From: Desmodesmus armatus
Lineage: Eukaryota > Chlorophyta > Chlorophyceae > Sphaeropleales > Scenedesmaceae
Length of the DNA stretch: 64,000 bases
Direction: 5' to 3'
NCBI GenBank assembly: GCA_007449985.2
Contig: VIIQ02000830.1
Coordinates: 124,001 to 188,000 of the forward strand
Shown: piece after piece, positions 13,172 to 52,800 of the stretch
Layout: every line of letters starts with the position of its first letter
Numbering within the stretch: position 1 is the stretch's first letter
Notes under the pieces: model-generated
Told to the model about the DNA's origin: nothing
Database searches by the model: none
What the model saw: the letters and a program-made list of their open reading frames with translations, nothing else
Program-made: the position numbers and the translations under genes

Positions 13172-14294
13172 TCAGCCATTACTCTCGCCTGTGCATTTGT
13201 ACTGCAGCCAGTAATAGTATGTTACTACTGGTAACTGCCAAACAGTGAGCACGCAGCTGCGCTGCCAACCCCAGAAACACAAGGGTGCAGAAGAAGAAGA
13301 AGAAGGGGTTACAGGGCGACACACGCAGCTACGCTGCAACGACACCCAGCATCGGAAGGGAACCAAAGGGCATAAGGGTGCAGCAGATGACCAAGGGCTG
13401 ACAGTTGAGCAGACCCCACCTGCAGTGTCGAGGCGCCTGAGTGTGAGGAAGGCATCCACACCATACCCGGGAAGGTTCACAAGGCACAGGTCACCACCTG
13501 CAGATGGCAAACAATGAAGGCTTTTGGTGACTGTGAGAGGGAGAACATAAGCCGCATGCAGAGCGCCAAAGCCGGCCGGCCCCTGTTTATGACATGTGAC
13601 AGAAACATCAGGTTACCAGAGTGAAAGCAAACAAACCGCAGCTGCACAGCCGACCCCTGCTTGCTGGTGCAGCAATGCCAAGACAGTGCTATCCAGAAAC
13701 CCCCTTGGCTTCAAACAAACTTGAGAAGCGAATAGTTGATTGGGCTGGCACCTTGGTGGGGTTCCCCCTGTGGGGGTTTGTGACAGTCGACGTGTCGCTT
13801 CCTACTGCACCCCTTCCTGCTGTTCTTTTGAAACGTAGCTGCTTGATCACCCTGTGACACTTCTCGCTTTCCTACCTCCCTGAGCCCCACTACTCACCAA
13901 ATCATCGTGCATACAGGCGAGTGTGGCACTGCCTGCCGGTGCAACTGCTGGGTGGTGTGTTGCTGCTGGGTTTGCTGTTGCTGTCACTGCTGGGTGACAA
14001 AACAACAGCCAACGCTGCCGGTGCAGGAATGCTGCAAACAGCCACATGTCAAGCCATGCACCACTCAACCCCTTAACTTTTGTAGCTATTATGTACAGGT
14101 CACACTTTTCCTCACTCACCAAAGTATCGTGCATACAGGCGGGACATCGGCAGGCCAAACCCTAGCCCCGCCAGGCTGTACCGCTGCTGGGGCGCCTGTG
14201 ACACGCTGCTCAACAGGTTGCCGAAAGCAGCAGCGGTCTGCACCAAGTGGTCATCTGCTGCTGCTGCCTGGTCAAAGCTAGGCTCGTCACTCTC

Positions 14295-14335
<41 letters not shown>

Positions 14336-14878
14336 CTGAGTGACTGCCGGGGGTGGCTAGGCCCACACCGCCCTCTGCATGTAGCAGCAGAATGGAGAGA
14401 GTGTGAATCGAAACATAGTTTCAAGGGCGCATATCATGCTGTGTGCTCAATCCGTACTCAAGGCAAGGGACGCCTGCGTTGCTGCCAATACATCAACAAG
14501 CACATGATAGCAGCTGCTGCTACTGCTCACGCAGGGGCTGTGACAGCTTTGCAATTGCGACCTGCACTGCGCCAGCTGCAACATGCGCACCCCCTCTCTC
14601 CCTCTTTGCTGCCTTGCTTCCTTCCCTCCCTCTGTTTCCCCTGCCCCTCCACCCCCCACCCCCCACCCCACCCCACCCCAGCACACTTACGTTCAGCATC
14701 AGCAAGCCCCGGCACCAGCATCTGCTGTCCAGCAAACTGCTGCCAGCTGCCGCTGCTGCCGTTGCCGCCGCCATTGGTGCTGCTGCTGCCTCCTGCTGCC
14801 ATCTGGCTGTCCAGGTCTGGCTGGCCTGTGGGGCTGGTGGTGAAGCCGTAGGACCACACCTGAGGCAGAACGGTGTGA

Positions 14879-14960
<82 letters not shown>

Positions 14961-15038
14961 CAGTTGGCTGTCCAGGTCTGACTGGCCTGTGGGGTTGGTG
15001 GTGAAGCCGTAGGACCACACCTGACACAGCAGGGTGGG

Positions 15039-15077
<39 letters not shown>

Positions 15078-18000
15078 GCGGCGGTGGCGTGCATGGTTGC
15101 CAGCAAAGCCTGCAATCCTTGAGAGTGTGCTACACCAGCTGAGTGCAACAAAATACACGTAAGAAACAGGTGCGTTGGGTGAACATGCTTCTTTCAATGT
15201 GCAAGCTCAGCAACAGGCGACGATCTCCCTGCTTGTTCAGGCAGCCGATACATGGCAGGTCACCTGGCCGATAGAGCGGCTCTCTAGCGCCACTTGGTAG
15301 CCTGTTTTCCAACAGCCCCCCGCCCCCCATCCCCACAACCCTCCCCCCATCCTCACGCCCACCCCCCACCCCCACGCCCCACCCTCCCACCTCCACCACA
15401 TTACAAGAAGTGTATCTAGTCCCACCTGGTTCAGGTGCTCCTGTGAGATGCCTCCCCCCTGGTCACTGATGCGTATCGTCAAGTGGCTGCCACCTGAGCA
15501 CACACGCGCCTACAGGCAACACAAGACAACACCCAGATGCACAGCACTGAGATACTGTTACTGTTACTGTTACATGGTTCAGGCTGAGCCTGAACACAGT
15601 TACAAATCGTTTTGTTGTCAAAGGCAGGCCGCAGCAACCACTCAAAAGGTATGGGACGGTGTCCTCGCTGGCACAACCTATGGCCTGAATGCCATTGGCC
15701 TGAGTCCATCAGCCGTAGCAAAGAGCAAGCGATACGCGCAGTACAGCCAAGTTGTCAACACGGATTGGCAGCTTCAGTTTGGCTGTGTGCCTGAGCACTC
15801 ACTGAGATGGGTGGCAGTGTGCTGCCGCGTGTGGTGTACTTGGCTTTCCGATGCCGCTCAACCACTGCAGCCAATCAGCAGCAGTTGGCAGGCAGTGCAG
15901 CGGCGACATACATCTGTCCAAAGGGGGGGGTCCTCTTCATGCAGCACAGCTGATCGCGCATGGGCTTTGCAGATGCATCTGTCACTGGCAGTTGCAAGCC
16001 CCAATTGCAAGGTTGACTCGTATGCCAGGTGCACTAAAAGATAGACAACATCATGACAGTGAGACCTTTAGCCTCCCAACATTGGCCTTGGTTCCTGCCG
16101 GCCTGCTGCACACACCTGCTCTCATCGAATTCTTCAGCAGCTCATAGACCATGTAGTCAAGGTGGGATGTCAGGTAGGGCAGGCGGGCATTCCTGTCCCC
16201 AGTTACCACCACCTCTGGAGCAATGCCATATGTTTCGCTGCACACCTGCATGCACACAAAGCAGGAGGGAGGGGTGAGTGTGCTGGGTGAGTGACAAAAC
16301 GTGGTCTATAAACATGGTCTTGTCTGAGATGTCGTTTGCAGGTTTCCTCGTTTCAGGGGTGCGTCTTTGGCTTACCCAATCGATCAAGTGTAGAGAGTGC
16401 CGCTTTGCGGTGAAAGTATCTACTTGTAAACCCCCCCCCCCCCCCAAATAAACATGGCGTGGGTGGCGTCAAGTGGTGCACTGGTCACCCTGTGAGTGCA
16501 TCACACCTGGCAGGGAAAGGAGGTGGCAGTGAGTGACAGACCCCCCTCCCCCCTTCCCTGAGAAGCAGTGGTGATCAGATCAGTTGATCAGCCTGCAAAA
16601 AGACATCATTTTGGCAATAAGTGAGGGCCCGCCGAGGTTCGAACTCGGGACCTGCTGATCTGCAGTCAGCTGCTCTACCACTGAGCTACAGACCCTCGTA
16701 CAGATGTGGGACGGCAGGTGATACTGGCATCCTTGAAACAATCAGTTCGCAGCAAAACCCTGGCCGCGCGCGATTTTCAAAAAAGCGCGTTTTCGCTCCA
16801 AAACGGCACTAGCTTGTTCTGAGAGGTCCCTGCTATCTCATGTGACGGCTGGTGTCACCCTGGGGCCTGTCATGTGATGATCACAACAACACAAGCAACA
16901 GGCTGTCACTGAATCAACCTGAAACAGGCACACTTGACCTAGAAGAAACAACATAAAATGATGTATGTAAGCTGCTGACTGCGGCACTGCCTTCCAGAGG
17001 TCTCAAGGACCAAGTTGGTCCGACTGACATCCACTCAGACCGGCCAGGGCAACTTGCAAGGATGCGACCAGTGTTAGTGAGGGACCCTCACTAAGAGACC
17101 CTTGCTACCCCTGGATGCGACCTACAAGAGTCATGAAAGGTGTTCAGGCTCTGCCAGTCGCGGTTCTGGGTGTTCCAGCGCTGTAACCAGACCTCCACCC
17201 ACCAACTGCCGTTCACCAGCACCCCCCATCACAGAGGGTGGGGTTTGTCCTGACGGCCGCCTGCCCGTCCTGGTCGCGTCCCTCTGTGGCTGGAGTCACT
17301 TGCAGTGCAGCTGCTTGGGAACTCCCTGTACCGTAACACCTTCCTTCCTTCCTTCCCTCTCTCCGTTGCTGCAGTCAGATGCAGCTTAGCTGCTTGCGAA
17401 CTCCTCTCAACACTCTTCTTCGGCCCCTTTACTCCCCCCCCCCCTCGCCCACCTGCACAGCCCTCTGCCCTGCAAACTGCACTGCATCAGGTACGTCCAG
17501 TGCTGTGGCTATGCTGCCAATGTAGCCGGGCCGTGCATTGGCGATGTGGAGGTGCTGCTCAGCCATGACTCGCCGGCTGATGCGGCTGCACAACACAACA
17601 AGGGGGAGGGGGCGGGGCACGGGAGGTAGGGTTTAGAAAAGGCACCAGCCGCGGAAGTGAGCCAGCTTCAGTTGTTTCGAGTGCAGATGCTGCTCAGCAT
17701 CACTTGCCAGCTGATACGACAGCGAAACACAGCCACCACCGTGCAGCACACAGCACACGGTGCGCCTGATCAGTCAACAACCAACCACACCTTCAGCATC
17801 CCTCTCTCCTCCCTTCCAGGACTGGCATCTTGCGTGGTTGCGTGTGTAACCCACATGCACGTAACACATATGTTCTGTTCCTGTTTCTATTCAAAACAGC
17901 GTGCCTTGCACCCTCAACCCTGTCTCACACCCACCTGCGTAGCATTGCGTCCAGGAAGTGGTCCAGCTGCAGTGCAGGTCCCACCAGCCGCTTGGCACGA

Positions 18001-19147
18001 CACTCAACCAGCCCAGCCGCCAACTCATCCAGCAGTGGGGCTGAGCAGCACAAGAAAGGAGGCGGGGAGGGGGGCAGGGGGGGGGGGTGCTTAGGTCAGT
18101 GGTAGTGGTGGGGTGCAGGGTGCAGAGTGCGCTGCTGATTTGACACCAGCCCTGCCGTCAACTGATCCAGCAGCGGGCTGAAAAGAGGGGGGGGCTGGGG
18201 GAGGGGGGATACCACACTGGGCTGGTGGACTGCTGGTCCCACCAGCCGCTTGGCACTACACCCCACCAGCCCTGCTGCAAACTTATCCAATAGTGGGGCT
18301 GAAGAGGACAAGGAGCAAAAGGGGCAAGTGGCACACACGAAGTAAGTCCTGCACATAAAAGCACTTCGCCCCAGTTTACTCCCCCCCCCCCACCCCCGCC
18401 CCCAACCCCCCCCCCCCCCCCCACCCACCCACCCCACCCACCCCCACCCCCACCCCCACCCCCACCCCCACCCCCCCCCCCACCCCCACCCCCCACCCCC
18501 ACCCCCACCCCCACCCCACCCCCACCCCCCCCCACCCCCACCCCCACCCCCACCCCACCCCCACCCCCACCCCCACCCCCACCCCCACCCCCACCCCCAC
18601 CCCCACCCCCACCCCCACCCCCACCCCCACCCCACCCCCCACCCCACCCCCACCCCCCCACCCCCCACCCCCACCCCCCCCCCCACCCCACCCCCACCCC
18701 CCCCCCCACCCCCACCCCCACCCCCACCCCCACCCCCACCCCCACCCCCACCCCCACACCCCCACCCCCACCCACCCCCCCACCCCACCCCCACCCCCCC
18801 CCACCCCTCAACCCCCACCCACCGTGTTCGTCCACCAGCCTCCTGAGCAGAGCACAGAACTCTGTGTTGTCTGCCAGGCTCTGCACACTGCCCCTCCTGC
18901 ACATGTAAACACCCTTCGCCACACTTCTGCACCCAACACCAGTCTCTCAGAGGAGGCTCCCCCCCCCCCCCACCCCCCCACCCCCCCACCCACCGTGCTC
19001 ATCCACCAGCCTCCTGAGCAGTGCACAGAACTCTGTGTTGTCTGCCAGGCTCTGCACCGGGCGGTACCCCCGCAGCGTCTCAAAGGCGTGGAAGTATCCC
19101 ATGTACACCCGCTGTATGTGGGGGTTGGTCACGACAAGGTGCCTGCT

Positions 19148-19185
<38 letters not shown>

Positions 19186-19263
19186 TCTCAAAGGCGTGGA
19201 AGTAGCCCATGTACACGCGCCGGATGTGGGGGCTGGTCACGACTAGGTGACTGCAGAGGCAGA

Positions 19264-19306
<43 letters not shown>

Positions 19307-19397
19307 GCGACAGCAGCAACAGTGTTACTGACGTGGAAGTATCCCATGTACACTCGCTGGGCGTGGGAGTTGGTCACGATTAGGTGACTGCAGACGC

Positions 19398-19433
<36 letters not shown>

Positions 19434-20969
19434 GACAGCAAGTGTTGCACGCGCTGGCAGCACCACCACAGTCAGCAAGAAGTTTGCATCTCCTAGGACA
19501 CCCCAGATACCGAGGAGACCAGGCCAGGGAAGCTTCACAAAGAAAATGCCTACATGTGCCAGGCTGATCGGCCTGATGAGGTGATGCCAAACAATCAGGT
19601 TTGTTCACAATTTGAACAAAGCCAACAGTACTGATATGTGCACAGCGACATCGTTGGTCAAGAAACAAGTCACTCCAAAGATGCCACTTACGGCAGCAGC
19701 TGCAGATCCAGCAAGCGGCGGGCAAGGCGCTTGGGCAGCTGCACAGGCACAGGCAGTACAATGACAGCAGCAGCACAGCCAGCAGGCAGCAAACACACAC
19801 TGAAACATGTGCAAATACCAATACAGTGCGTTGGTGTTGCCATGACTTGCTGCAGTCATGATTGAGCGGCACAGCTGCAGACACCAGATCAATCCCCACA
19901 ACCACTTTGTTACAACAACCACTCCAAAGTTGTCAGCAAAGATGCATCGCAGACCCACATACAGAGGTCAGAGGTTTCAGGCGTCAATGCACCCCGACGC
20001 GCAGCTCCAATTGCAGCGCTACACCTCCTCCCACTCAGAGGGTGCCCTGCTTCTGTTGCAACACCAACGCTGTTTCTGCCAGCACAGAACCCTCTCCCTG
20101 ACACTCCTGCATCAGGGTAGAATCACGGACCCATCTTCCCCTTGGTGCTCCATCTCCTACTGCTGCTGCTGCTGCTGCTGTTGCTGGTGGCAGCATTGAT
20201 CTTTCCTGTGCCCGTCATCCCCTGGCTCTCACCTCCTCCTGCACGAATCGTGCACTCTGTATGATTTTGCTGGGGTCTGACAGCACGTTGCGGCCAATGG
20301 TCAGCATCTGCACACCACAGCACAGCACAGCACGGCACAGCATGGCACAGCGCGTCACAGCACGACACAGCGCAGCACACACCAGATGCAGTTGAAAGCG
20401 GGGTGGCAGCATTGGGGAGCAAGCTGTGGGTTATGCCTCTACTGCTGCTGCTGCTGCTGTTGCTGCTGCAGGTCCACGGGCGCTGCATACTGTGGCGAGG
20501 CTACAGTAGCTGTGACAGCATACGTACAGCACACCAGCCCTGCACAACTGCATGCTGTATGTGGCAGTTGCTTGCTGTGTGTCCAGGTGCCACCCTGGCA
20601 CACTAAACAACTACTACTACTGCTGCGGCTCTGCTTTTTGCAGCTTCCTTGACTGTACTGTGCTGACAAATAACTGTTGCATCAGGGCCAACCCTGAGTG
20701 CATGTGATTGTGATTTCTTGACGCAGCACAGCAGCTGCAACTCTGGTCATCAGGCGCGGCTGTTTCAGTACGCTACAGCATATGCAAGTGCTGCTGCTGG
20801 AGGGCTTGCACAGTTTGTAACTGCTGTCCTGTGTCGTGCTGTACCTCAAAGCAGCAGAACTCACCTGCTCTAAGGACAGAGTTTCAATGGGTTGCTCAGC
20901 ATACTGCACAACAGGTTCAGACGAAGCAGCAGTAGTCCATTGCGGATGTACATGAAACAACAGAGCCAT
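13172..20969 (-). CDS. Pyruvate dehydrogenase kinase-family protein kinase (PDK/BCKDK)
   Basis: This mitochondrial-type histidine-kinase-fold Ser kinase phosphorylates and inhibits pyruvate (or branched-chain ketoacid) dehydrogenase E1. Exons on the minus strand: 20969-20865, 20307-20233, 19738-19692, 19142-18994, 18040-17935, 17585-17453, 16245-16116, 15864-15803, 15509-15426, 14859-14691, 14374-14120, 13497-13172. All are GT-AG and every phase agrees, giving 546 residues. Visible motifs are the H-box MAEQH (~168-172), N-box ELLKNSMRA (240-248), G1 DQGGGI (285-290), G2 GLGFGLP (423-429) and RYFGGDL with GYGVDAFL near the C-terminus. MVYELLKNSMRA and SRLYARYFGGDL resemble plant PDK more than BCKDK. 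A Ser-run and a Gly/Ser-rich insert lengthen the ATP lid beyond the usual ~400-residue protein. The start ATG follows an in-frame TGA at 20988-20990; no clear transit peptide is visible, so an upstream exon is possible. Several exon edges are duplicated in the introns. Confidence 0.87.
13890..13925 (-). repeat. Decoy copy of PDK exon 11 end and donor
   Basis: The minus strand repeats about 25 bp of the end of exon 11 plus its donor. The functional donor follows 14120 and the copy's follows 13898 (CCTGTATGCACGAT...TTTG|GTGAGT). The copy has changes that break the frame but keeps GTGAGT. It lies in the intron downstream of the exon. Confidence 0.75.
14879..15078 (-). repeat. CTG arrays flanking a decoy copy of PDK exon 10 head
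   Basis: On the minus strand the acceptor and first ~60 bp of exon 10 (start 14859, VWSYGFTTSPTGQ) recur with start 15020 (VWSYGFTTNPTGQ). Each copy is followed or preceded by a CTG/CAG array (14879-14959, 15041-15078). Read-through from the upstream copy enters the arrays and then meets exon 10 out of frame, so the downstream copy is taken as functional. Confidence 0.8.
16318..16447 (+). mobile_element. 5'-truncated LINE 3'-end insertion with TSD
   Basis: The sequence is flanked by a 10-bp direct repeat ATAAACATGG (16308-16317 and 16448-16457). Its right half (16389-16447) matches the 3' tail of the LINE at 8023-8080, including the double hairpin, TGTAA and C-run/A end. This is the expected product of target-primed reverse transcription with early 5' truncation. 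It lies in intron 6 of the kinase gene, antisense to it. Confidence 0.85.
16597..16601 (-). terminator. Candidate pol III terminator (T5)
   Basis: AAAAA on the plus strand gives TTTTT 22 nt downstream of the intronic tRNA-Cys gene. This is the usual RNA polymerase III stop signal. Confidence 0.55.
16624..16695 (-). tRNA. tRNA-Cys (GCA), nested in PDK intron 6
   Basis: The reverse complement is identical over 72 nt to the tRNA-Cys at 12493-12564: same GCA anticodon in loop CTGCAGA, same 7-bp acceptor and T discriminator. It lies inside intron 6 of the kinase gene (between exons ending 17453 and starting 16245) and on the same strand, so pol II transcripts of the host gene pass through it. A T5 stretch follows at 16601-16597. 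The upstream flank (16696-16805) keeps an order of motifs shared with the other copy, and the 3' flank also starts similarly (cac-tattgcc). Confidence 0.97.
17683..17735 (-). repeat. Degenerate decoy copy of PDK exon 6 head
   Basis: The minus-strand text resembles the acceptor and start of exon 6 (SRISRRVMAEQH) but with many changes. The acceptor AG at the equivalent point (next to 17719) has become TG. It lies in the intron upstream of the functional exon that starts at 17585. Confidence 0.65.
18120..18310 (-). repeat. Two decoy copies of PDK exon 5 head
   Basis: Sequences equivalent to the start of exon 5 (functional start 18040, LLDELAAGLVE) occur with starts at about 18177 and 18298. Both are in the intron upstream of the exon, spaced 137 and 121 bp apart. 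They keep GCTG-rich acceptor surroundings. The third copy still reads LLDKFAAGLV. Confidence 0.8.
18379..18830 (-). repeat. (GGGGGT)n minisatellite in PDK intron 4
   Basis: The plus strand is about 450 bp of CCCCCA units with variants, so the transcribed strand product is G-rich (GGGGGT)n. It directly follows the decoy exon 4 donor (18823), and the functional donor (18994) is followed by similar G-rich sequence, suggesting the array grew out of the intron start. It is an obvious G-quadruplex candidate in DNA and pre-mRNA. Long Gly/Trp/Val open frames across it are artefacts. Confidence 0.9.
18823..18900 (-). repeat. Decoy copy of PDK exon 4 tail with donor
   Basis: The minus strand repeats SLADNTEFCALLRRLVDEH and its donor (exon end 18823, GTGGGT). 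This is near-identical to the functional exon 4 end at 18994 and lies in the downstream intron. Confidence 0.85.
19149..19433 (-). repeat. Tandem PDK exon 4 heads with CAG arrays
   Basis: Three copies of the exon 4 head (HLVVTNPHIQRVYMGYFH or variants) start at 19387, 19250 and 19142. Each has an AG acceptor and all need the same one-base phase, so any could be joined to exon 3. CAG arrays at 19149-19183, 19267-19320 and 19398-19433 separate them. Only the 19142 copy continues into the rest of exon 4. The 19250 copy stays in frame through a poly-Leu run into the 19142 copy. The 19387 copy has a potential donor GTCAGT at 19332. Confidence 0.85.
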
Positions 20970-37463: not shown

Positions 37464-39602
37464 ATGGGCAGCACAGGCGTCACACTGCCTCCTCTGGGCC
37501 TGAAGCAGCTGGCGGAGGCGTATGCCTCGGGTAGCCTCACCCCTACCCAGCTGGTCCAGGCCCTATACCCCCGCCTGGCCAGCACAAAGGGGGTTTTCAT
37601 CCACCTTGCTAGCCTTGACGATATGCTGGCACGAGCAGCTGCTTTGGAAGCTGCTCCAGCTGCTGGTCGTGGCCCCCTGTGGGGTGTGCCTTTCGCCACA
37701 AAGGACAATGTGGATGTTGTGGGCATGCCTACCACTGCTGGTTGCCCAGCTTTCAGCTATGTGCCTGCCAAGAGTGCAGCAGCAGTGCAGGCACTTGAGG
37801 ATGCTGGTGAGAGAGGGGGGTTTAGGGCTGCTGATGGAGGGGGGGGGGTAGAACTGGTGAGGGAGGGGGGGGTAAGGATGGGGAGGAGGGGGTACCAATG
37901 GTGAGGGAGGGGGTGTGGGGCTGGTGTTGGTGTACTGAACATCAAGAAAACCTGCGAGTCACATGCAAGCAGTCCTGTATGTGTGTGTGTGTGGGGAGGG
38001 GGGGGGCAGAGGAGAGGTTGGCAACTGCAAGGAGCACAGAGGCCATGTGTGCGGGGCTGGTGGTGGGTTTGGGGGGGAAGACAGATCTTACTCGGCAGTG
38101 GATTGTTGATGCCCAGTAGGTTTGAGGCGGTCAGGGGCACCCCTCTACTACAGTTACAGGCCCGCAACATGTTGTGTACACCCCACGTTTAAACAGACCG
38201 GGGGTATATACAACATATTACGGGGCTGTAACTGTAGAAGAGGGGTTCTTCAGCCCAGAAGCCCTATGTCTCACTGCAAAGCCCTTCAAGTAACGATGTA
38301 CAGCCACCACACAACCCCCTGTGCTGCACTTGGCACTCTCTCCCTCATCCACAGCAATAGCTAGAGTTTCCTTCACTTGCAGGAGCACTCAATTACTCAG
38401 CGCTCCCCCATCTGATTCAAGCAGCCAGCACACTGCACACTATGCTTCGCCCCTGCCCCCCCCCCTCCGAGGAGTCCCCGCCCTCGTTCCCCTCATCCCC
38501 CTCCCTCCCCCGCCTCCCCAGCTGCCCCTTTCCCCCTGGCCCCCTGGCCCCCTCTTCCTTGGTTGTGTACCGTAGATACCGTGGTATCAACTGTGGCAAA
38601 CCAACCTTGACCAAGCTACCAGCGGCCACCAGTGGTGCATACCACAAGCCTACATCTGGCTGTACAACCTCTTGCTCAATTGTGTATCTTTCACTCTGCA
38701 GCCAAGCATGCTCCCTTCCCCCCCCCCCCCCACACACACACACTTTGGTTGATGCACTGGCTGGATGCACTTCCTGTGTCTACGCACATGTGCAGGTGGC
38801 ATCAACTTTGGCAAGACCAACCTCGACCAGTTTGCCAGCGGCCTAGTGGGCTTCGTAACCTTGCATCTGGCTGTCACAGTTGGCAACCTCTCGTTGGAAT
38901 TGTGTTCCCTACATTCTGCAGCCAAGCATGCCCCCCCCCCCCCGCCACCAACCCCACACACATACCCCTGTCCAGGTGGCATCAACTTTGGCAAGACCAA
39001 CCTCGACCAGTTCGCCAGCGGCCTCGTGCATACCGCAACCCTGCATCTGGCTCTACAACCTCTCGTTGGAATTGTGTTCCCTACATTCTGCAGCCAAGCA
39101 TGCCCCCCCCCCCCCGGCCACCAACCCCACACACACCTACCCCTGTGCAGGTGGCATTAACTTTGGCAAGACCAACCTCGACCAGTTTGCCAGCGGCCTA
39201 GTGGGTACCCGCACCCCCTACGGTGTCGCCCCCAACGCCTTCGACTCCCGATTCATCCCCGGCGGCAGCAGCAGCGGCAGCGCCTCAGCAGTGGGGGCAG
39301 GCCTGCTCACCTTTGCACTGGGCACAGATACTGCAGGCAGTGGCCGCGTGCCGGCTGGCTACAATGGCTGTGTGGGGCTGAAGGGGAGCTTGGGCAAGAT
39401 AAGCACTGTGGGTGAGTCATGCAGCAGCTGCAAAGAGTGATGCGGCAGCTGCAGAAAGAAAAGAAAAGAGTGATGGAGCAGCTGCAAAAGTAAGGAAAAG
39501 GAGTGATGCAGCAGCTGCTGGTGGTGCTTGTGGCAGGGGTGAAGGCGCACATTAGCCCAGCAGCTGTTGGCCAGGGGTGACGTTGGTAGGAGGGTGGTCT
39601 GG

Positions 39603-39633
<31 letters not shown>

Positions 39634-42120
39634 ACATGGGATGGGTTCACTGAATTGGCTGTGTGTCAGTTCTGGCATTCAGCTCTGATGTTTGATATCT
39701 GCCAAAACCCTTTCACCCTTCAATGTACTGTTGGGGCGTAACTTGCCCATCCTGGGTTCTGGTGCTGTGCTGTGCTGTGTTGTTCTGTGCTGTGTGTAGG
39801 TGTGGTGCCTGCGTGTGCTGCGCTGGACTGCCTGACAGTGTTTGCGCGCAGCGTGCCAGAGGGCATCACCATCATGCAGGTGGGCGGCTGGACGGGCGGA
39901 GGGGGGGAGGGGGGCAAGGGGGCGGGCGTATGGTGGCGGCTGGAGGGAGAGGGGGGAGGGAGGGGGTTCAGAGTGGGGGGGGGCGAGGAGAGGTGGGTGG
40001 CGGTTGGAGGGGTGAGGGGGGCAGGTTGGTGGCAGCTGGAAGGGAGAGGGGGCCGTGAAAGGGAGGGGCAGGTGGGGGGGGGGGGGACTGGAGGGGGGAG
40101 GGAGGTGGGGGGACGGGTGGTGGCTAGAGAGGGGGAAAGGGGCGGGAGAAGGCAGGTTTGTGGCGGCTGGAGGCGGGGCATGGGTTGGCTTCCTAGGCTT
40201 GCCTTGCCGTGGTGTGTGGGGTCGGCTGGGCCTCTTGGGGGCGTCCTCCGAAACATGGCCCGAGGGACAGGGGTGTGCGAAGTAACAGGACACATCAGTG
40301 CCTGGCTGGCTTGCTGGTGCCATGAATGGGACTCTGTCCCCTACTTCCTGTATTGTACTGCATTGCGCTGTACCGTGCCGCACCATACCGTACCATATCG
40401 TACTCGTTTGTACTGTATCAATGGCTGCAGGTCATGGAGGGTGCTGATGCTGGGTCGGTGGACGTGTGGAGGCGTGCCCGTCTGACGCTGCCTGGGTTGC
40501 CCCAGCAGGGCTTCAGGTTTGGTGTGCCTAGCGAGGAGTTCACAGAGTGGGACGGCCCAGGTGAGGGACAGGGGGCTGCAGGCATTTTGTCTTAGCACGA
40601 AGTGATGCAGTGCAAATGCCATTGGCCAAATCGGCAGTGGGAATGGTTTGAAGTCGTGGTGGCGGGTTTCGCAGACCGTTGTACTGGCTTCACCTTGGTT
40701 TGCAGCACTTTGCACTATGTGACAGACATGTCAAAGCAATGCATAACTGTGACAGACGCGGCTACATGCCGAAAAACTGCATATGCTAGCCCCTTCTCAC
40801 CAAGACGGCTCTTATGCTGCACCCACTGCCCACACCATCCATACAGGTGGTCCCGCCATGGCTGCTGCAAGCAAAGCCGTGCCTTTCTCCCCTAGAAATG
40901 CATATGCTAGGGCTAGCGACACCCTGTAACAACACCCTTGGCTCTTACCCCGCACACCCTCCACACCAACCACTGTTCTCACCATCCTCAACAGGTGGTC
41001 CCGCCATGGCTGCTGCCAGCAAGGCCGCCTTCGCCGCTGCCATTGCCCGCCTAGAGTCCGTGGGCGGTCAACGCGTGGAAGTCGACTTCTCACCCTTTGC
41101 AGAGGCAGCAGCCCTGCTGTACCAGAGCAGCTTTGTGGCAGAGCGCTACAGCGGCATCAGGGCGTTTTTGGATAAGCCGGCTGGGGGCTCTGCTCAGCAG
41201 CCGGAGGAGGCGCTGCAGCAGCAGCGGACGATCAACGGTGACCAGCGGCTGCTGCCCGTTACTCGGGCGATCATCTCAGGCGCAGGTGAGAGTGGTCGCA
41301 GCCGTTTTGGAATGTTTGCTTGTTGTTGCAGCACATGTTGCTTGTTGTTACAGCAGACGCTGCAAGATGTTTTTTTACGCTGCAAGATAGCAAAGGTTTG
41401 ATGAGTGGCAAGCGAGTTGGTTCTTGTTTCAGGGGGGGGGCGCAAGTGGCTGTCTTCCTGACAACTGGTGGCCAGACTTGGCGCCGTTGGCTGAAATTTG
41501 GCATGGGTTGCGCAGCAGCAAAAGCAAGACTCAAGAGCAGCAGGGCAGCTGCTGCTGGGCAGCACTTGCCAGACGGTATCACTCTTCGCATGCCAACAAT
41601 AGGTTTGCCTGCACACGTTGCTGTTTCCTGCCCCGCAGGCAAGTTCACGGCCACCGACGTTTTCGACGACCGCGCCCGCCTGGCAAAGCTTGCCGCCCGC
41701 GCCCGTGCCGAGCTTTCAAAGCTCGACCTGCTGCTGGTGCCTACTGCTCTCGAGCACTACTTGGTCTCCGAGATCAACGATACAGAGGACACACCCTCAC
41801 CCACGTGGCCCCTCAACGCTAAGAACGGCCGCTTCACAAACTTCGTCAACCTGTTGGACATGTGCGGCATAGCCATCCCATCTGGGCTGCTGCGCGTGGA
41901 CTATAGCACACCAGATGCGGCTGCGGGCACAGGGGCGACGCGGGCGGGAAGGTTGGCGGCGAGCGGTGGGCCACAGGCTGTGGTGCTGCCCTTTGGGGTG
42001 ACGCTGCTGGCAGGGGCCTGGCGGGATGAGTGGCTGTGGGGTATTGCGGAGCGTCTTGAGGCAGCAGCTGGGCTGAGCTGCGGGCCAGAGGGGCATGGGG
42101 TCACTCCTGTGGTGGTGTGA
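37464..42120 (+). CDS. DUR2: Allophanate hydrolase, amidase domain
   Basis: This amidase-signature enzyme hydrolyses allophanate, made from urea by urea carboxylase, toward ammonia and CO2. Exons: 37464-37806, 39151-39411, 39800-39879, 40431-40560, 40995-41285, 41639-42120; all GT-AG with matching phases, 528 residues. The Ser-cisSer-Lys triad is clear: K80 in PFATKDN, S154 in [10 protein letters not shown]178 in [12 protein letters not shown]. Spacings of 74 and 24 equal those I recall for Atz[32 protein letters not shown] and [10 protein letters not shown] are characteristic of allophanate hydrolase rather than general amidases. The usual ~130-residue C-terminal domain is absent after PVVV-stop; it is encoded by the divergent gene at 35766-34319. 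Intron 1 (1.3 kb) holds extra exon 2 heads and intron 4 an extra exon 5 head. No targeting peptide is seen. Confidence 0.92.
38581..39200 (+). repeat. Tandem array of DUR2 exon 2 heads (4 copies)
   Basis: The head GGCATCAACTTTGGCAAGACC ([16 protein letters not shown]) starts at 38581, 38796, 38976 and 39151. The first copy is degenerate and lacks AG. The middle two keep TGCAG or TCCAG acceptors in the correct phase but diverge after GLV into intron-like text. The last is functional. Each unit also carries 'ccaagcatgcccccccc' and CACACA tracts. Unit lengths are 215, 180 and 175 bp. Confidence 0.9.
40780..41040 (+). repeat. Duplicated DUR2 exon 5 head
   Basis: ACAG|GTGGTCCCGCCATGGCTGCTGC occurs at 40847 and again at the functional start 40995, 148 bp apart. 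A 'gcatatgctag' phrase is likewise repeated upstream of each. The first copy runs into a TAG after about 14 codons. Confidence 0.85.
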
Positions 42121-42356
42121 GGCTCAGTGGTGGGCTTGGCGGCATCATGCGATATTGAACATGATGTTTGTGTAGGGTGGGTGAGTGGGTGTTGGAGGAA
42201 AGTGTGGGCGTGACGGATGGGCCCAGTGAATGGCCAAGGTACAGTTTGGGCTGTTTTTGTATGACTGGCTAAGTACTGTTTGGCTTGAAACCAGGGTATG
42301 GGTTGTGGGGAAGAAGTGTGGCAGTGCTGGTTGTTGAAATCGATCTAACTGGTGTC

Positions 42357-42365
42357 ATTTCAGAA
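42357..42365 (+). repeat. Left 9-bp target-site duplication
   Basis: ATTTCAGAA immediately precedes the transposon and recurs directly after it at 44211-44219. Confidence 0.9.
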
Positions 42366-42546
42366 GCACCAGGGCCGTTACCGCCTAGGTTGCTGCAAGC
42401 CGGCCTAAGGGGCTCGCCTTAGGTCGGGACGGCCCGGCCTAACAGCAGTTTAGGGGCGTCCTACGCCCTGCAGAACGTCCTGGCAAGCACGCAGCACGCA
42501 CAAATGTTATCTAATGGTTCATAAGCACGGTCTGCGCGCAGCAGCA
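42366..42546 (+). repeat. Left terminal inverted repeat (181 bp)
   Basis: Reverse complement of 44030-44210 with no difference noticed. It is GC-rich, with internal palindromic text such as CCGGCCTAAGGGG and CGCCTTAGG. Confidence 0.92.
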
Positions 42547-43425: not shown

Positions 43426-43731
43426 TCATGAGCTCAAACATTGACTGCTGCACTGCTGTGCGGCTGTCAAGATGCCACCTGTTGGCTGTGGTTGAAGCTT
43501 CTCGAGCAGCACGTCTGCTGGGTTCTTGAACTTGCTGCTGTTCAACAACGCAGGGACTTCAGAGGCACACAAGCGAAACCGACGCTCTTCATGCCATAAT
43601 TCACTCCTTTGTTGACAGTAGTCTGGGTTTGCGAGCGATGCGTGGTGTTGTGCCAACGTGATTTCCATTGATGCATCTGATGAGCAGCACCAAGCTGAAG
43701 GGAGTGTAGAGTAGCCACTCGAGTGAGGCAA
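43426..43731 (-). pseudogene. YqaJ-like nuclease fragment inside transposon
   Basis: This 101-codon frame contains QRSELWHEERRFRLCASEVP followed by LLNSSKFKNPADVLLEKL. It resembles the N-terminal motif of YqaJ/lambda-exonuclease-like domains (Q-R-S-x-x-W-H-x-x-R-x-x-R-x-x-A-S), which occur in some eukaryotic transposons. The rest of the domain, with the catalytic D-ExK residues, is not evident downstream, so this is an exon or a remnant. The frame at 42826-43185 on the same strand might be another piece, but I cannot show that. Confidence 0.45.
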
Positions 43732-44029
43732 AACGATTTGACATCAACGTGCGTTGGTGACTGGTGGCTTGTCAAGGGCATGATACACTGCAGGCGACTG
43801 TTGGCAAGTTTGACTCTGTAACTGTTTCAGCCAGACAGCACTGAGGGATCAAAGGGTTGCAGAGCTGCGCAGTGGTGCCCTGTTGCATGTTTGAAGTATT
43901 TTGCATGCTGTTTGGGCCTCCGTATAGGTCGTAGTTGTATGTGGCACTCATGCAACACCCTTGGAGTCAGGGTGGTCTGTGTGGGAGTGCCCGTCTGCTG
44001 CTGCTGGTTGCTGTGGCCGTTTGCACCAG

Positions 44030-44210
44030 TGCTGCTGCGCGCAGACCGTGCTTATGAACCATTAGATAACATTTGTGCGTGCTGCGTGCTTGCCAGGACG
44101 TTCTGCAGGGCGTAGGACGCCCCTAAACTGCTGTTAGGCCGGGCCGTCCCGACCTAAGGCGAGCCCCTTAGGCCGGCTTGCAGCAACCTAGGCGGTAACG
44201 GCCCTGGTGC
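44030..44210 (-). repeat. Right terminal inverted repeat (181 bp)
   Basis: Inverted copy of 42366-42546, followed directly by the second ATTTCAGAA target duplicate (44211-44219). Confidence 0.92.
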
Positions 44211-44219
44211 ATTTCAGAA

Positions 44220-45050: not shown

Positions 45051-46661
45051 ATGTCAGACAGTAGCAAGAGGGACCTAGCAGTCCTAGATGGCTCTGCTGC
45101 TGGCCCAGCTGCCAAGAAATACAAGTCAGAGGCCCGGTTGGGCGATGATCGGGTTGCTGCTATGCCAGTGGGCAGTAACCTTATCGAGGTTGACGGGAAG
45201 TCCTGCACACATGAGGTGTGCTGGCCCCCAGGGGCGCAGGGCAGCAACGACCCACCCAAGGCCAGGCCTGGGGCACCTGCACGGGAGTACCCCTTCAAAC
45301 TGGACCCCTTCCAGCAGACAGCAATCAACGCACTGGAAGGAGGTGCGGCATTCGTCTTTGTTTAGTATGTCTTGCTGAACTCGTTGGCACAGCAGCTTGT
45401 AGGATGTGAATTGAAGCGTGAATGAAATCAGCAGGGTTGACCTCAGCAGGCAACATACACCAGCAGCAGTGGAAGCAATTACAGCCAACAGCTGCAGCGT
45501 CACACAGCTGGAACCCTGATAAACCGCCAAGCGTATCACTATGATTGTCTTGGCTAGCAGTGGGGATGAGGCAAGGCGCTGGCGCATGTCCTGACATGGC
45601 CTTGCAGGGTGTCAGTGTCAAGGCAGCAGCACATCCTTCCTGACCATGCTTGTCGCCTGGCTGCCCCTGTCGCTGTTGCCGCAGGCCACAACGTGCTGGT
45701 GGCTGCACACACGTCAGCAGGAAAGACTGTAGTGGCAGAGTATGCCTTTGCCATGGGCATGCGGTGAGCAAGAGCTCTGACAGCTGGCAGCTACACTCGG
45801 GGCAGTTTGCTTGCACCATGCAGCAACAGGCTTGCGACTGTAGCGGCCGCAGCGCTTGCGGCTGCAGCAGGCTTGCAGGTGTAGCCGGCTTCCAGCTGGC
45901 AGCAGCACTAATTGGGGAGCTGCCAGTTTGCTTGCAGCGTGCAGCAGCAGGCTTGTAGCTGTAGCAGGCTTGAGAGTTGTACCAGGCCAGCTGCAGCACG
46001 TGCAAGCACAGACTGATAGTTGCCGCTGGCTGTATGTTCAGCTCCATTAGCTGTATCTCAACAGCAGTGTGCTGCAACACAACTTGGGGCAAGTACTTGC
46101 AACATGCCATGCCCTTAGGGGCCCTCAGCAGCTGTTGCTCCCTTCAATTACCCTGGCTTTGTGCTGACTGCGCTGTGCCGTGCTGTGCTGTGCTGTGCTG
46201 GGCCCTGCCTGCAGTGACCGCATGCGTGTGGTGTACACCAGTCCCCTCAAGGCCCTCAGCAGCTGTTGTGCCCTCAATCACCATGACGCTGTGCTGACTG
46301 CGCTGTGCTGCGCTGTGGCGTGCTGTGCTGTGCTTTGCCCTGCCCCTTTGTCCTGCAGTGACCGCATGCGTGTAGTGTACACCAGTCCCCTCAAGGCCCT
46401 CAGCAACCAAAAGTACAGGGAGCTGTCTGAGGCGTTTGGTGATGTGGGGCTCATGACAGGGGATGTGACCATCAACCCGAATGCAACCTGCCTGGTGATG
46501 ACCACGGAGATCCTGCGCAGCATGCTGTATAGGGGATCAGGTGAGGCAGCAGCAGTTGACGCCACCAGTAGCAGCTACCAGCAGCTGCGGCAGCAGTCAG
46601 CCAACTGTCGCTTGATGACCAAGTAGATCCTGCGCAGCATGCTGTACAGGGGGTCAGGTGA

Positions 46662-46712
<51 letters not shown>

Positions 46713-46805
46713 TGACCCAGCTGGTAGCACCCACAAGCAGCAGCGGCAGCAGTCACTCAAGTGCATCTGTTTCCCACTTGAACTATGGCACAGCATGCTG
46801 TACAG

Positions 46806-46869
<64 letters not shown>

Positions 46870-49800
46870 TCAACCAGGATGAGCCAGCAGCAGTTGCCAG
46901 CAGCAGTATCATGCAAAAGTCTCCAGCAGTAGCAGTAGCAGCCACAGCAGCAGCAATGAGCTTTGACATCTTGCAGCAGCAGCATATGTTGAAGGCTCAA
47001 CTCTGGTAAAGACTTTGTTCTGCTACACTGGACGTGCTGTGCGTGCCATGCTGTGCGTGCCATGCTGTGCGTGCCTTGCTGTGTGCAACACGCTGTGCCC
47101 CACCTGCTGTATACTGTACTATGCCTGCTCGGGTCGGCAGAGGTGGTGCGTGAGGTGCATTACAGCTCTCCTGGTGTACGATCAGGAGGGGTGCGCTGAC
47201 AGTGTGCCTCACCTCTGCACACCTTGTCTTACCTTCTGCTCGTATCTCCTTGTGCCTGCAGAAGTGGTGCGCGAGGTGGGTCTCCTGGTGTACGACGAGG
47301 TTCACTACCTTCGCGACACAGAGCGCGGTGTGGTGTGGGAGGAGTCAATCATCCTGGCCCCTAAGGCTACCCGCATGGCCTTCCTGTCAGCCACCCTGCC
47401 CAACAGCGCAGAATTTGCGGGCTGGGTTGCTGCTACACACGGCAGTCCTGTGCATGTGGTGTACACGGAGTACAGGCCGACACCTCTGCAGCACTATATG
47501 TTTCCGGCAGGTGGGCGGTCCCTGCGCTGGTGGCTGGTTTAGGGTTTGAGTTACAAGGTTGAGGGGTTACGGGTTTAGGGTTCCCTCCCAAACCCTAGCA
47601 CTACATGTTCCCAGCAGGTGGGCGGTCCCTGCGCTTGTGGCTGCTGTTGGTTTGCTGCTGTTGGCCCTATGGACACCGTCGTACAATTCGCGTGGGGGTT
47701 GAGTGCCTGCATGTGCTTTCACACCTGCATTGCGGCCAGTTGTTGGCAGGCGGTTATGGTTGAGACAACAAGAAGAAGAGTAACTGACATGTGATGGGTC
47801 ACGTCATTGGTCCTGTATATGCAGTACACATGTCTGCACGGCGATGCTGCAAGTGGCTTGACCAGCTGCGCCTGCATGCAACACGCTGTGCTGTGCTGTG
47901 CTGGCAGGTGCTGACGGACTGTTTATGGTTGTTGACGAGCGTGGTGTGTTCAAGGATGACTCATTCCAGGCAGCAGTGGCGGCCCTGCAGGACGGCAATG
48001 CAGCAGCTGCAACAGCGCAGAGCGGCAAGGGTGGCACCAAAGGGGACAAGAAGCAGCCAAAGCAGGTGAGTGTGTCAGTAGCTGGCAAGGAACGTTATGG
48101 CTTTTTCCACTGCTGGTATGCACTGCACACGAAGCGGCTCAGGCGCTTGCACTGCTTGCAAAGAAAGAAATGCCCCCATGCAGGGTCCGAACATGGCGTC
48201 TTCGCCAACCAGCAACACACCAAGACTGCTTGTACCTCCACCGGTTTTTTTTTCACGACACCTCGTTTTTGGATCCTGAACCTCAAACCCTTAACATCAA
48301 AACCCTGCAGGGCCCCGGCAGCGACATCTTCAAGCTTGTGGTGATGGCGATGACGCGTGGCTACGACCCCCTCATTGTGTTCAGCTTCAGCAAGCGTGAG
48401 TGTGAGTCCCTGGCCCTCAGCCTGGGTTCACTGGACCTCAACAACAACGATGAGAAACAGCTGGTGGAGGGCATATACAAGTAAGTGGAGGGAATGCCGC
48501 ATTTCAACGCAGGCTGCGCTGTTCATTTGCCTGGAGTTGTGTATGTACATACAGTGTTTGTGTGTGAGGGGTTGTGAGGGGTTTGGGCTGGACTCGTAAG
48601 GCCGCTGGACCCTCAACAACAACGATGAGAAGCAGCTGGTGGAGGGCATATACAAGTGGGTGGAGGGAACGGTGTGCTGAACGTTTGGCCTGGGCTTGTG
48701 TGGAGGGAGTGTGATTGGGTGTGAGGCGGTGTGAGGGGATATGGGTGGGCGCGGAGTGGTGTCAGGGGGTGTGGCAGGATGGGGGAGGATGGGGGGGGGG
48801 AGGGGTGGTGAGGGGGTGTGAGGGGTGTGAGGGGCTTTGTGGCTGGGACCAGTGAGGCCGCCGCACCCTGCAGCTGCTCACTGGACCACGACAGCAACAA
48901 TGAGAAGCAGCTGGTGGAGGGCATACACAATCAAGTGGAGGGACTTGTACGATAGATGTTTGTCCAGGCTGTGTGTGTACCATACACACAAGCTCTCATG
49001 TGAAGGGGGTGGAGTCGTTGTGAGGGGGTTTGGGTGGGCGTAAGTGGGTGGACTGGGTAAGAGGGGGTGCGAGGGGCCTGGTGGCTGCGACCAGTAAGGC
49101 CGCCACAGAGTACATGCGGCCACCAATCACTGCATGGTTGGGTTGATGTTCTACATCTGCGCATCATAGTATGATGCGGATGTGACAGCAAAAGCGAGTA
49201 GCGTCACTCGTGTGGTTTCAGGCCGAAGTTGAGCCGGAGGCGCAGCCACAAGCACTAGAGACCCAGGAATGCTGTTCCCAGATTGGGCTTGTCTGAAGTG
49301 CTGGACAAGCACTTGTTCGTTGCGTGTGTTGCCCCTGTTCCATCCCCAGGAATGCTGTTGACCTGCTGGCAGAGGACGCCGGCCGTTCCTGCAGCAATGC
49401 CATACACTTAGGTGTACATCTGTGGCAACTGTGGCAACTGTGTCGTGCAACATCTCCTCTCACCCCCCCCCCTCACCCCATTCTACAGGAACGCTGTTGA
49501 CCTTCTAGCAGAGGAGGACCAGCGTCTGCCTCAGGTGCAAACGCTGCTGCCCGTGCTGAAGCGTGGCATAGGTGTCCACCACAGCGGCCTGCTGCCCATC
49601 CTCAAGGAGCTGGTGGAGATACTGTTCTCGGTGGGTGCAGGGCTTAGACAAGGGGTTCAGGGCTCAGGGGGTTGCGGTTTTATGAGTTTTCAAAGGTTGG
49701 AGAGCCGGGAAATCACCCTCACAGGGTTGAGGGGTTAGCAGCTGGGAGTCGTCGTTTCTGCTGCCTGGCCTGATGGGATGTGTGCAGGGCGGCAATTGGG

Positions 49801-52800
49801 AGCTGGCTTTGTATGGGGTTCTTTCCTGCGTCGAGATGGGGCCATGTGGGCTTGCGAGTTTGGTGTGCAGCCTGTGTCATACACTCCCGAGTGTGTGTGT
49901 GATGTTACATCAGGACAAAACACAACTGCTGGGGTTGCATGCATGTACCCCGATGGAGTGTTGTTGTCAATACATGCATGCGCAGTGCGCCCTGCAAGTT
50001 CTGCGAGTGTGGTGATAAGTATGTGTTTGTTTGTGCATGCGTGCGTGCGCGCAGGAGGGTCTGTTGAAGGTGTTGTTCGCCACAGAGACCTTCTCCACCG
50101 GTCTCAACATGCCTGCCAAGTCTGTGGCGTTCACACGGGCCCGCAAGTGGGACGGCGGCATGTTCAGGTGACTGGGGGCTACACAAGCCGCTACCCGCAC
50201 TTGGCTGTCTTTGTCACCTCTCTGCTTCCTTGTCGCCCCAGTGTTGGTCCTGACAGCATGTAGAGCGTGCGTTTGTCCGGCAAATAGGTGTCCGCTTGGT
50301 CGTTGTGCTCGTGCGTCTGCTGCGAGTGGGTTTCCTGCAGTTCGTTTCGCACGAGGCATGTTCAGGTGATTGGGGAGGTGACTGGGGGCTATACAAACCG
50401 CTACCCGCACTTGGCTGTCTTTTCAACAGACCGCAAGTCGCTTCTCTGCTTCCTTGGCATCCCAGTGTTGGCTCTGACAGCATGTGGAGCGTGCGTTGGT
50501 CCCGGGAGCTATGGTCCGCTTGATTGTTGTCCTTGTGTGTCTGCTGCGATCTGGGGTCCTGCAGTCTGTTCACAACTTGTTTGCTTGCTTGTTGACTGCT
50601 GCAACACATCTTTCTGTCCAGGTGGCTGCGCAGCGGGGAGTACATTCAGATGAGCGGTCGCGCTGGAAGGAGAGGGCTGGACGACCGAGGTGTGTTAACG
50701 AGCGCTGCCAGCGCTGTGTGGCACACGTGCTGACCGCTACAGGGGCATGGGTCATGGACAGCAGTAGACTTTGACAGCAGACCTTGACAGTGAGCCATAG
50801 TGACACAACAAACAGTGCCAGGCCGCTCCGCATGCGGCTTGGTGGGTAAAAATACTGCATGGGCAGGAGGCGTCGTGCCGCGTACTGGGCAGTTGGGGCA
50901 GCCGATGTTTGTGATGCTGATGTTTCACATAGCGTGCAGTTTCACACACAGCAGAAGCCACGCTTGGTGCTGTTTGGTCCGTGCAGCAACCACGCGATAC
51001 ATGTACCTTATGTGTCGGTCTGCTGACAGCATGGCGGTTGTGTGCTGGCTGCTGCCCACAGGTATCGTCATCCTTATGTTTGACACCCAGATGGAGCCGG
51101 CTGTAGCGCGTGACATGATCAAGGGTGCAGCAGATCCTCTGATGTCAGCCTTCAGCCTGCGCTACAGCCAGCTGCTGCAGCTGGCACGCACGGAGGGCAG
51201 CAGCCCAGAGATGATGCTGCGGGTAAGGCGGGTACTGGCCCTTACAATGTATTTAGTAAGGTCAACATACGGTTAGTTCAAAGGTTCGGAAGTTTCAAGC
51301 GGTCCAAGCACTTGGTCATGTGGATGCCCGAGGTTGTGAATGCCCTGCAGGCAGCATATCAGTAGTTGTGAATGCCCTGCGGCAGCATGCCTTGCTTTGT
51401 GCCAGGTGTGCTGGGTTTGCATCCTTTGAGTGATGCTGCATGCTTTTGTCAGCTTCTTTGTTGTGCGGTTAGCTGTACATGGCTGTACGACGCATGTGCT
51501 GGGCTTCGCTTGTGCCGGCACTTCCTCATTCACTTTTTGAACATACGCGCCTGCAGGCCAGCTTTCGGCAGTGGCAAGTGGAGCGCTCTGTGCCAAAGCT
51601 GGAGCAGGAGGTGGCAACAGCAACAGCAGCGCGTGATGCAATAGTGGTGGAGCAGGAGGAGCAGGTGCGCGCGCTGGGGCTCTGAAAAGTTTTTTTGGTA
51701 AAGATAAGGGGGGCGGACCCTTACAGGTTGGCCACACACACAACGAGTGAAGCTTCCGGGAGCCCGAGGTCTAGCCTCACACCGATGAGAGACGCCTAAA
51801 CACCCTTTTTACTCAGGAGGTGCCCAGTCAGGGGCTTTGCAATGACCCATGCCTGCAGTGCTCGATTCAGCCGGCAGGGGTCCAGATTGCTTGCCAGTTT
51901 GGTCGGTTTGGCAAGGATAGGGGAGTATGCGGCGATCGGCATGCCAGGCCATAGCTTGACACATGTCAACCAAGTGCCTGCAGCGCTGACACACATGCAG
52001 TCGTAAAAAAGGCATATGTGCTGTGCTGTGCTGTGCTGTGCTGTGCTGTGCTGTGCTGTGCTGTGCTGTGCTGTGCTGTGCTGTGCTGTGCTGTGCTGTG
52101 CTGTGCTGTGCTGTGCTGTGCTGTGCTGTGCTGTGCTGTGCTGTGCTGTGCTGTGCTGTGCTGTGCTTTGCTTTGCTTTGCTTTGCTTTGCTGCAGGTTG
52201 CTGCCTTTGCAGAGTTGCTGCTGACACGGCTGCGCCTTGGCGAGGCTCTAAGGGACTGCGTCAGCGACCCTGCAGCAGCGCTGCGCTTCCTCAACCCGGG
52301 CGCTTGATACGAGTCGACAGCACGCCGCCCGACCCGCACCGGCAGCTGCCGTCGCTGGGCACGTATGTGGAGCCAGAAGCCGCAGCAGCAGCAGCAGTAG
52401 ACGCACAGCAGCCGGAGGCAGCAGATGTCAGCAACGGCGTCAAGCACAAACATGCCGGCGGTGCAGCAGCAGCAGCAGGGGCGGCGGCGGCAGCAGCTGT
52501 TACCGATGCAGAGGAAGTGGAACCGCTTGGTTTGAGAGGCAGCGGGGTTGACGTTGTTGCAGCGGTTGACGCAGGCAGCGTCTGGGGTGTGCTCGTAAAC
52601 TTCCAGAAAGCAGGCAAGTCTAAGTCCAACAGCAGCAGTACTGCAGCTGGTGAAGATGAGGACGGCGGCGGTAGCAAAGGCAGCAGCACACGCTATGCTA
52701 TCGACGTCCTCATAAATGTGGACCCAGCTACGTTACCCAGGGGTGCAGCAGAGGGTGCCACAGGCCCCAGCAGCGGCAGCAGCAGAGGCGTGCTGCCGCG

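Follow-up and report, generated by a model that had tools for sequence, protein, structure and literature searches.

The question raised by this locus is how the edges of exons, complete with their splice sites, came to lie in several diverged copies within the adjoining introns. The locus belongs to a stretch of 64,000 nucleotides of the green alga Desmodesmus armatus (assembly GCA_007449985.2, 115.8 Mb in 831 contigs; contig VIIQ02000830.1, here C785:124001-188000), which is referred to below as the window. A preliminary description of the window listed 18 exon edges of five genes as occurring in tandem copies and supposed that introns were growing across their own junctions, with decoy splice sites being added to most introns of the genome. 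According to the analysis reported here, the copies are real but patchy rather than general, and they probably arise by local tandem duplication, which is tolerated in introns, sometimes crosses a splice junction and is filtered by selection on exons.

In total, 24 pieces of the assembly, including the window, were sampled (333,288 bases) and assigned to group A (the span containing the 18 edges), group B (the remaining window), group C (40 kb beside the window), group D (other samples, one of which, L004, C785:1-10000, lies on the same contig as the window) and set E (C10 and L014, separated as repeat-rich only after the results had been seen; counts are given with and without it). It should be noted that C10 (pieces L006 and L007) and L014 contain many direct repeats of about 200 bp, some of them over predicted exons, which may represent repeat-domain genes or satellites. 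An exon edge was taken as 10 intron bases plus a maximum of 50 exon bases; it was aligned to the adjacent intron (up to 700 bp), and the score was compared with those of 300 draws of equal length from other introns. No copy coordinates from the preliminary description were used in this test, and the exon models of three genes were curated by the authors. All 18 listed edges outscored all 300 draws, and in each of them the best copy lay within 3 bp of a listed one, so both the observation and its coordinates were confirmed. Across the sample, 45 of 478 junctions were positive, with 1.6 expected (a previous analysis of 313 kb with 200 draws gave 46 of 451, with 2.2 expected). Once simple repeats had been masked, a de novo search for local repeats revealed 273 pairs with a score of at least 20 in 253 kb, and no such pair in three Markov-shuffled replicates; 100 of the 221 pairs with a score of at least 26 were found in C10 alone. 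The splice junction itself was included in 42 of the 45 significant copies, and the remaining three positives, whose copies stopped over 8 bp before reaching the junction, were excluded from the later anatomy, placement and codon counts.

The frequency of positive junctions differed strongly between the groups, with 18/77 in A, 0/50 in B, 10/80 in C, 6/243 in D and 11/28 in E (A vs. B, p = 5 × 10−5; C vs. D, p = 0.001). L004 contributed 10 junctions to group D, one of them positive, and on strictly other contigs the count was 5/233. A copy was borne by 26 of the 187 introns in groups A–D, and the supposition that most introns receive decoy sites was thus not upheld. The comparison of introns with their flanking exons against controls, which had been proposed for the whole genome, gave a clear excess in the sampled stretches, confined to a minority of junctions.

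Exon lists of the genes MTR4, DUR2 and a kinase were curated from reading frames and splice sites and overrode the calls of a small gene finder, which was trained on these three models, self-trained on the sample, and run with an exon penalty and no RNA backing. The finder returned exactly 11 of 11 MTR4 exons, 5 of 6 DUR2 exons and 11 of 12 kinase exons, a check that is partly circular because it was first trained on these very genes, and it merged the first copy into kinase exon 4. The kinase had been named PDK; the Pfam domain BCDHK_Adom3 places it nearer to branched-chain ketoacid dehydrogenase kinase (BCKDK), a relative of PDK. The spliced products of MTR4 and the kinase aligned with the solved chains of yeast Mtr4 (DOB1) and BCKDK, respectively, without an insert at the array-bearing junctions. 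A relative of DUR2 on a contig of 2.3 kb encodes a protein of 528 amino acids, the same length as the DUR2 protein of the window (86% identity, full coverage), without inserts, and a relative of the kinase on a contig of 1.9 kb (88% identity) likewise has none at these junctions; the lengths of the two contigs suggest an origin from spliced RNA. The nearest named relatives of DUR2 and the kinase belong to Tetradesmus obliquus and Scenedesmus sp. NREL 46B-D3, other relatives being nearer (85–86%). Since the three models fit the chains or relatives without inserts at the junctions, the exon-proximal copy is, by homology, the splice site used in MTR4, DUR2 and the kinase. The GC content of the sampled sequence (57.1%) and its mean intron length (516 bp, 174 predicted introns) are close to the values of 57% and 462 bp given for the T. 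obliquus genome (PMC5966456).

The distance between a copy and the true site had a median of 166 bp (quartiles 131–234, range 99–355). In 25 of the 42 copies, the intron part of the duplicated unit was also significantly recognizable or at least 60% of the unit was covered, for example at MTR4 exons 3 and 8, at DUR2 exon 2 and in the 123-bp array at 34459-34875. If the copies were adjacent head to tail, the aligned length should nearly equal the spacing; the aligned exon and intron parts made up at least 60% of it in 19 of the 42, and simple repeats or decay may hide the rest. The array at exon 3 of the gene described as the allophanate C-domain consists of 3.2 units of 123 bp (34473-34869), and the spacings in the array at DUR2 exon 2 are 175, 180 and 215 bp. 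Introns with copies were longer than those without (median 577 vs. 348 bp, groups A–D), which, together with the recognizable intron parts, bears out the earlier idea of introns growing by tandem duplication across their own junctions. The suggestion that CAG or G/C-rich repeats in the spacers could be a driver found no general support: the fraction of simple repeats in introns with and without copies was 0.190 vs. 0.083 in span A (p = 0.045) and 0.041 vs. 0.070 in groups B–D (p = 0.88), where CAG/CTG runs are almost ubiquitous (10 of 12 introns with copies and 115 of 139 others). Introners are dispersed, near-identical elements that make introns. No near-identical copies at unrelated loci were found for the one unit used as a query against the whole assembly, that of DUR2, which gave three matches, all at its own locus.

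According to the proposed explanation, local tandem duplications with spacings of 99–355 bp would arise throughout introns and other non-coding DNA, by slippage, unequal exchange or template switching, and a unit that happened to run across a junction would duplicate the end of the intron and the edge of the exon along with the splice site between them. Because splicing would continue to use the copy joined to the rest of the exon, the outer copy would become part of the intron, leaving the protein unchanged and the intron longer, and this fate in RNA, like the mutational step, is presumed. Duplications inside exons would be removed, presumably by selection. Coverage by local duplications, assessed by testing 60-bp windows for a nearby copy, is consistent with this scheme: in groups A–D, such a copy was found for 37 of 310 junction windows (11.9%), 193 of 1660 windows in intron interiors (11.6%) and 6 of 236 in exon interiors (2.5%), the latter being almost copy-free, as purifying selection predicts. 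When the full unit length of each event was slid over positions to predict the number of junction-crossing events, 10 of the 21 events in groups B–D crossed a junction, with 11.0 expected. The arrays of three to four copies (34473-34869 and DUR2), the greater length of the host introns, the recognizable unit or intron part in 25 of 42 copies and the relatives' proteins without inserts also support local tandem duplication, as do the best copies in the kinase, where all 12 amino-acid changes were on the copy side when the alignments were read by eye against the nearest relative, which agreed with the exon.

A number of results weigh against this explanation. The intron part was unrecognizable in 17 of the 42 copies; apart from the edge of the exon and the splice consensus, little could be made out in them, partly owing to the masking of simple repeats. 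With junctions and intron interiors equally covered, the junction share would be about twice that expected under uniform placement, because an intron-only pair has both of its copies in the intron, whose interior should therefore receive about twice as many hits; from the coverage by group (junction/intron: A, 0.268/0.230; B, 0/0.054; C, 0.190/0.166; D, 0.049/0.062; E, 0.350/0.248), junctions would be somewhat over-represented in A, C and E, with the caveat that the conserved exon side makes junction copies easier to detect. Junction-crossing events also exceeded the placement expectation in span A (17/23 vs. 9.6, P = 0.001; a span chosen for the pattern), in set E (6/7 vs. 3.1, P = 0.021; a set separated post hoc) and in A–D pooled (27/44 vs. 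20.5, P = 0.022). The differences between copies and exons also look coding-like: the nonsynonymous-to-synonymous ratio (N/S), calculated under the mutation spectrum seen in the intron parts and taken over one best copy per junction, was 0.24 in A–D (47 nonsynonymous and 75 synonymous differences in 30 events; bootstrap 0.17–0.34). A neutral copy mutates equally at all positions and should therefore give an N/S near 0.5 even if all changes in the exon are silent, and simulations of a neutral copy against a fully constrained exon yielded medians of 0.53–0.58, with none of 400 runs at or below 0.24 in each of the four settings. Synonymous divergence was uniform at 0.248 (chi-square 29.9, 29 df, p = 0.42; the counts are small, and copies past the detection limit are unseen), and none of the 32 events in A–D reached 97% identity; this uniformity and the lack of young copies differ from what steady duplication predicts.

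The coding-like pattern was found in all groups with copies (N/S of 0.20 in A, 0.27 in C, 0.30 in D and 0.23 in E) and was similar for all 25 listed copies, which gave a ratio of 0.22 (42 nonsynonymous and 58 synonymous differences). The codon counts exclude two copies of whole exons, at window coordinates -1742 and -1549. In span A, differences at codon positions 1, 2 and 3 numbered 10/237, 9/238 and 40/233, respectively. The copies shared 80% to 94% identity with the true edges across the aligned parts of exon and intron (32 events, A–D), and the aligned intron parts had diverged by 0.155. The simulation matches a ratio of 0.24 if silent sites of the exon change about four times as much as the copy, and at twofold this value is reached in 3.75% of runs. 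Meanwhile, a stop was present in the exon part of 3 of the 30 copies and a frameshifting gap in 7 of the 30. The earlier statement that coding sense decays is therefore correct for some copies, but the differences as a whole are strongly synonymous, the opposite of simple decay. None of the explanations considered here fits the N/S, the uniformity and the decay together.

The silent differences could be explained by exchange between diverged haplotypes, whether in the genome or in the assembly. In the living genome, the copies would come from different alleles through unequal exchange or template switching between homologs, or the exon would later have undergone recombination with other alleles, from which the intronic copy was barred; by either route, the synonymous difference would predate or bypass the duplication. 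Such an origin agrees with the low N/S, the uniform synonymous divergence of about 0.25, the divergence of 0.155 in the aligned intron parts and the absence of young copies, but it requires very high synonymous diversity, arrays of three to four distinct copies are not two alleles, and the kinase changes are one-sided. Moreover, the assembly yielded no second MTR4, DUR2 or kinase at allelic identity (best others 74%, 40% and 45%, respectively, among the best candidates, which alone were scored), and we regard this origin as unlikely. A reading of every copy as one of two alleles was set aside, being weakened by the stops and frameshifts as well as by the one-sided kinase changes. It is rather improbable that the copies, instead of being neutral relics of one duplication each, are fragments of a second, diverged haplotype that were joined to the edges of exons in vivo, where only the exons would be similar enough to recombine; if this were true, introns would lengthen by failed recombination between diverged homologs. 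Placement of pieces of a second haplotype or strain beside the first during assembly, i.e., a heterotype false duplication, would also explain the orthologue-like divergence between copy and exon and the strongly uneven samples, and errors of this class are documented (PMC9516828). A good part of the copies are not functional alleles, as follows from their stops and frameshifts, the arrays contain copies of differing divergence, no haplotig was found for MTR4, DUR2 or the kinase, and neither the window nor the 23 sampled loci checked contain Ns; an assembly origin is improbable to a similar degree.

A further alternative is that the outer copies serve as alternative splice sites or coding alternatives and are kept by selection. 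The splice dinucleotide was retained in 40 of 42 copies, which upholds the earlier remark that it is often kept, and the excess over the number predicted from identity is weak (34.3, P = 0.011; about 36 if the copy alone changes, P = 0.038). The copy sites scored near the true ones (mean 5.03 vs. 5.64, p = 0.027; the true site outscored the copy in 20 of 40 cases and equalled it in 11), and the N/S is coding-like. On the other hand, only 18 of 42 copies lie at a distance from the true site that is divisible by three, stops and frameshifts occur, the relatives' proteins have no inserts, and the excess in retention is slight and partly due to ascertainment. Evidence for upkeep of the dinucleotide in spare sites is weak at most, and selected function is very improbable, the least probable of the explanations weighed here. 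Only slightly less improbable is a mechanism aimed at junctions, such as slippage in CAG or G/C tracts near splice sites or an element that duplicates these sites. The crossing beyond geometry in A and E and the simple repeats of the copy-bearing introns of span A point towards it; groups B–D have neither excess, the DUR2 unit matched its own locus only, and junction events were sought by a gapped test but intron-only events by a less sensitive ungapped scan, which biases the comparison towards junctions. No clear sign of junction targeting was thus obtained. A geometry based on ungapped footprints (9 of 26 events crossing in A–D vs. 4.1 expected) was superseded by the full-unit test: the match is often interrupted right at the junction, so that junction events were put in the wrong class. 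At most weak support was obtained for driving by simple repeats, for junction targeting and for dispersed elements, all of which were considered.

The gene models and exon edges concerned are given in Table 1.

Table 1. Gene models of the window and exon edges with copies in the adjacent intron (window coordinates; gene names marked "a" are those of the preliminary description)
Feature	Position	Strand	Details
MTR4 gene model	45051..51664	+	exons 1-11; Pfam DEAD and MTR4-like stalk
DUR2 gene model	37464..42121	+	6 exons; Pfam Amidase
PDK/BCKDK-family kinase gene model	12990..20307	-	12 exons, 5' end provisional; Pfam BCDHK_Adom3
Kinase exon 4 head	19080..19440	-	acceptor 19142; copies 19250, 19387; CTG-rich intron
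Kinase exon 5 head	17968..18312	-	true 18040; copies 18177 (1-bp gap), 18298
Kinase exon 6 head	17546..17731	-	true 17585; copy 17719 (AG to TG, 1-bp gap)
Kinase exon 10 head	14810..15039	-	true 14859; copy 15020
Allophanate C-domain (a) exon 3 head	34459..34875	-	true 34490; copies 34613, 34737, 34860; 123-bp unit
DUR2 exon 2 head	38581..39216	+	true 39151; copies 38976, 38796, 38581 (AG lost in 38581)
DUR2 exon 5 head	40843..41027	+	true 40995; copy 40847
MTR4 exon 3 head	46120..46405	+	true 46359; copy 46215
MTR4 exon 4 head	47137..47296	+	true 47262; copy 47141 (7-bp gap)
MTR4 exon 7 head	49347..49515	+	true 49489; copy 49350; intron part of unit unrecognizable
Kinase exon 4 tail	18788..19057	-	donor 18994; copy 18823
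Kinase exon 11 tail	13892..14141	-	true 14120; copy 13898 (in-frame stop)
Amine oxidase (a) exon 9 tail	27548..27785	-	true 27752; copy 27554 (5-bp gap)
Amine oxidase (a) exon 10 tail	26976..27123	-	true 27109; copy 26980
MTR4 exon 3 tail	46496..46718	+	true 46540; copy 46657 (in-frame stop)
MTR4 exon 4 tail	47490..47642	+	true 47510; copy 47617
MTR4 exon 6 tail	48436..48943	+	true 48480; copies 48655, 48930 (GT lost in 48930)
MTR4 exon 8 tail	50157..50570	+	true 50167; copy 50365; unit of about 200 bp, mostly intron

Several other features were noted in and around these genes. The kinase intron after exon 4 contains a 6-bp unit (CCCCCA on the plus strand) that runs for 440 bp (18381-18820), and the intron between exons 6 and 7 (numbering of the preliminary description) contains a tRNA-Cys(GCA) gene on the minus strand (16623-16695), with another on the plus strand downstream of the kinase (12493-12565). 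A local duplication of 46 bp lies across the kinase stop codon (12940-13030), the last codons being copied into the 3' flank; it is the same kind of edge copy, located at a gene end. The MTR4 frame stops after RFLNPGA in exon 12 (about 52290-52310), and the sequence seems to continue out of frame, possibly owing to an assembly error. Between DUR2 and MTR4 lies an element of 1.85 kb (42366-44210) whose ends are perfect inverted repeats of 181 bp and which looks like a terminal-inverted-repeat transposon; related ends were found on C101 (97%), C422 (83%) and C65 (72–73%).

Tandem duplication ranks among the leading models of intron gain, and few cases of it have been caught. A genome in which a duplicated splice site is carried by 18 of 77 junctions in span A and by 16 of 373 outside span A and set E would offer many natural tests of the choice of the correct copy in splicing, of intron lengthening and of copy decay. 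The coding-like pattern of the differences between copies and exons deserves the most attention. Should haplotype exchange lie behind the synonymous uniformity, recombination between diverged homologs would be linked to intron growth; should assembly lie behind it, the uniformity would be a warning about exon-edge copies in algal genomes.

In the open-licence literature, judged by titles and the beginnings of abstracts, no report of dense junction-crossing copies in one genome was recognized, which is not proof of absence; the most likely reading is that of a known kind of process at an unusual local density. The copies resemble heterotype false duplications (PMC9516828) in being adjacent and diverged and in including pieces of exons, and differ from them in their spacings of 99–355 bp at junctions and in the stops or frameshifts that some of them carry. 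The origin of introns by tandem duplication is the subject of a review (PMC3443670) and, for Drosophila cases, of PMC2891723; the algal duplications likewise supply spare splice sites, but here existing introns lengthen, and no new intron was seen in the three checked genes. A precedent is the potato RdRp gene, in which a tandem duplication across an intron–exon boundary was reported (Ma, Lan and Niu 2016, PMC4974935). In both systems, the duplicated stretch comprises the 3' part of an intron together with its splice site and the beginning of the exon that follows. In potato, a cryptic donor gave rise to a new intron and a piece of exon entered the gene, whereas in the alga the copies remain in the old intron, occur at many junctions with up to three copies at each, and leave the three checked proteins unchanged.

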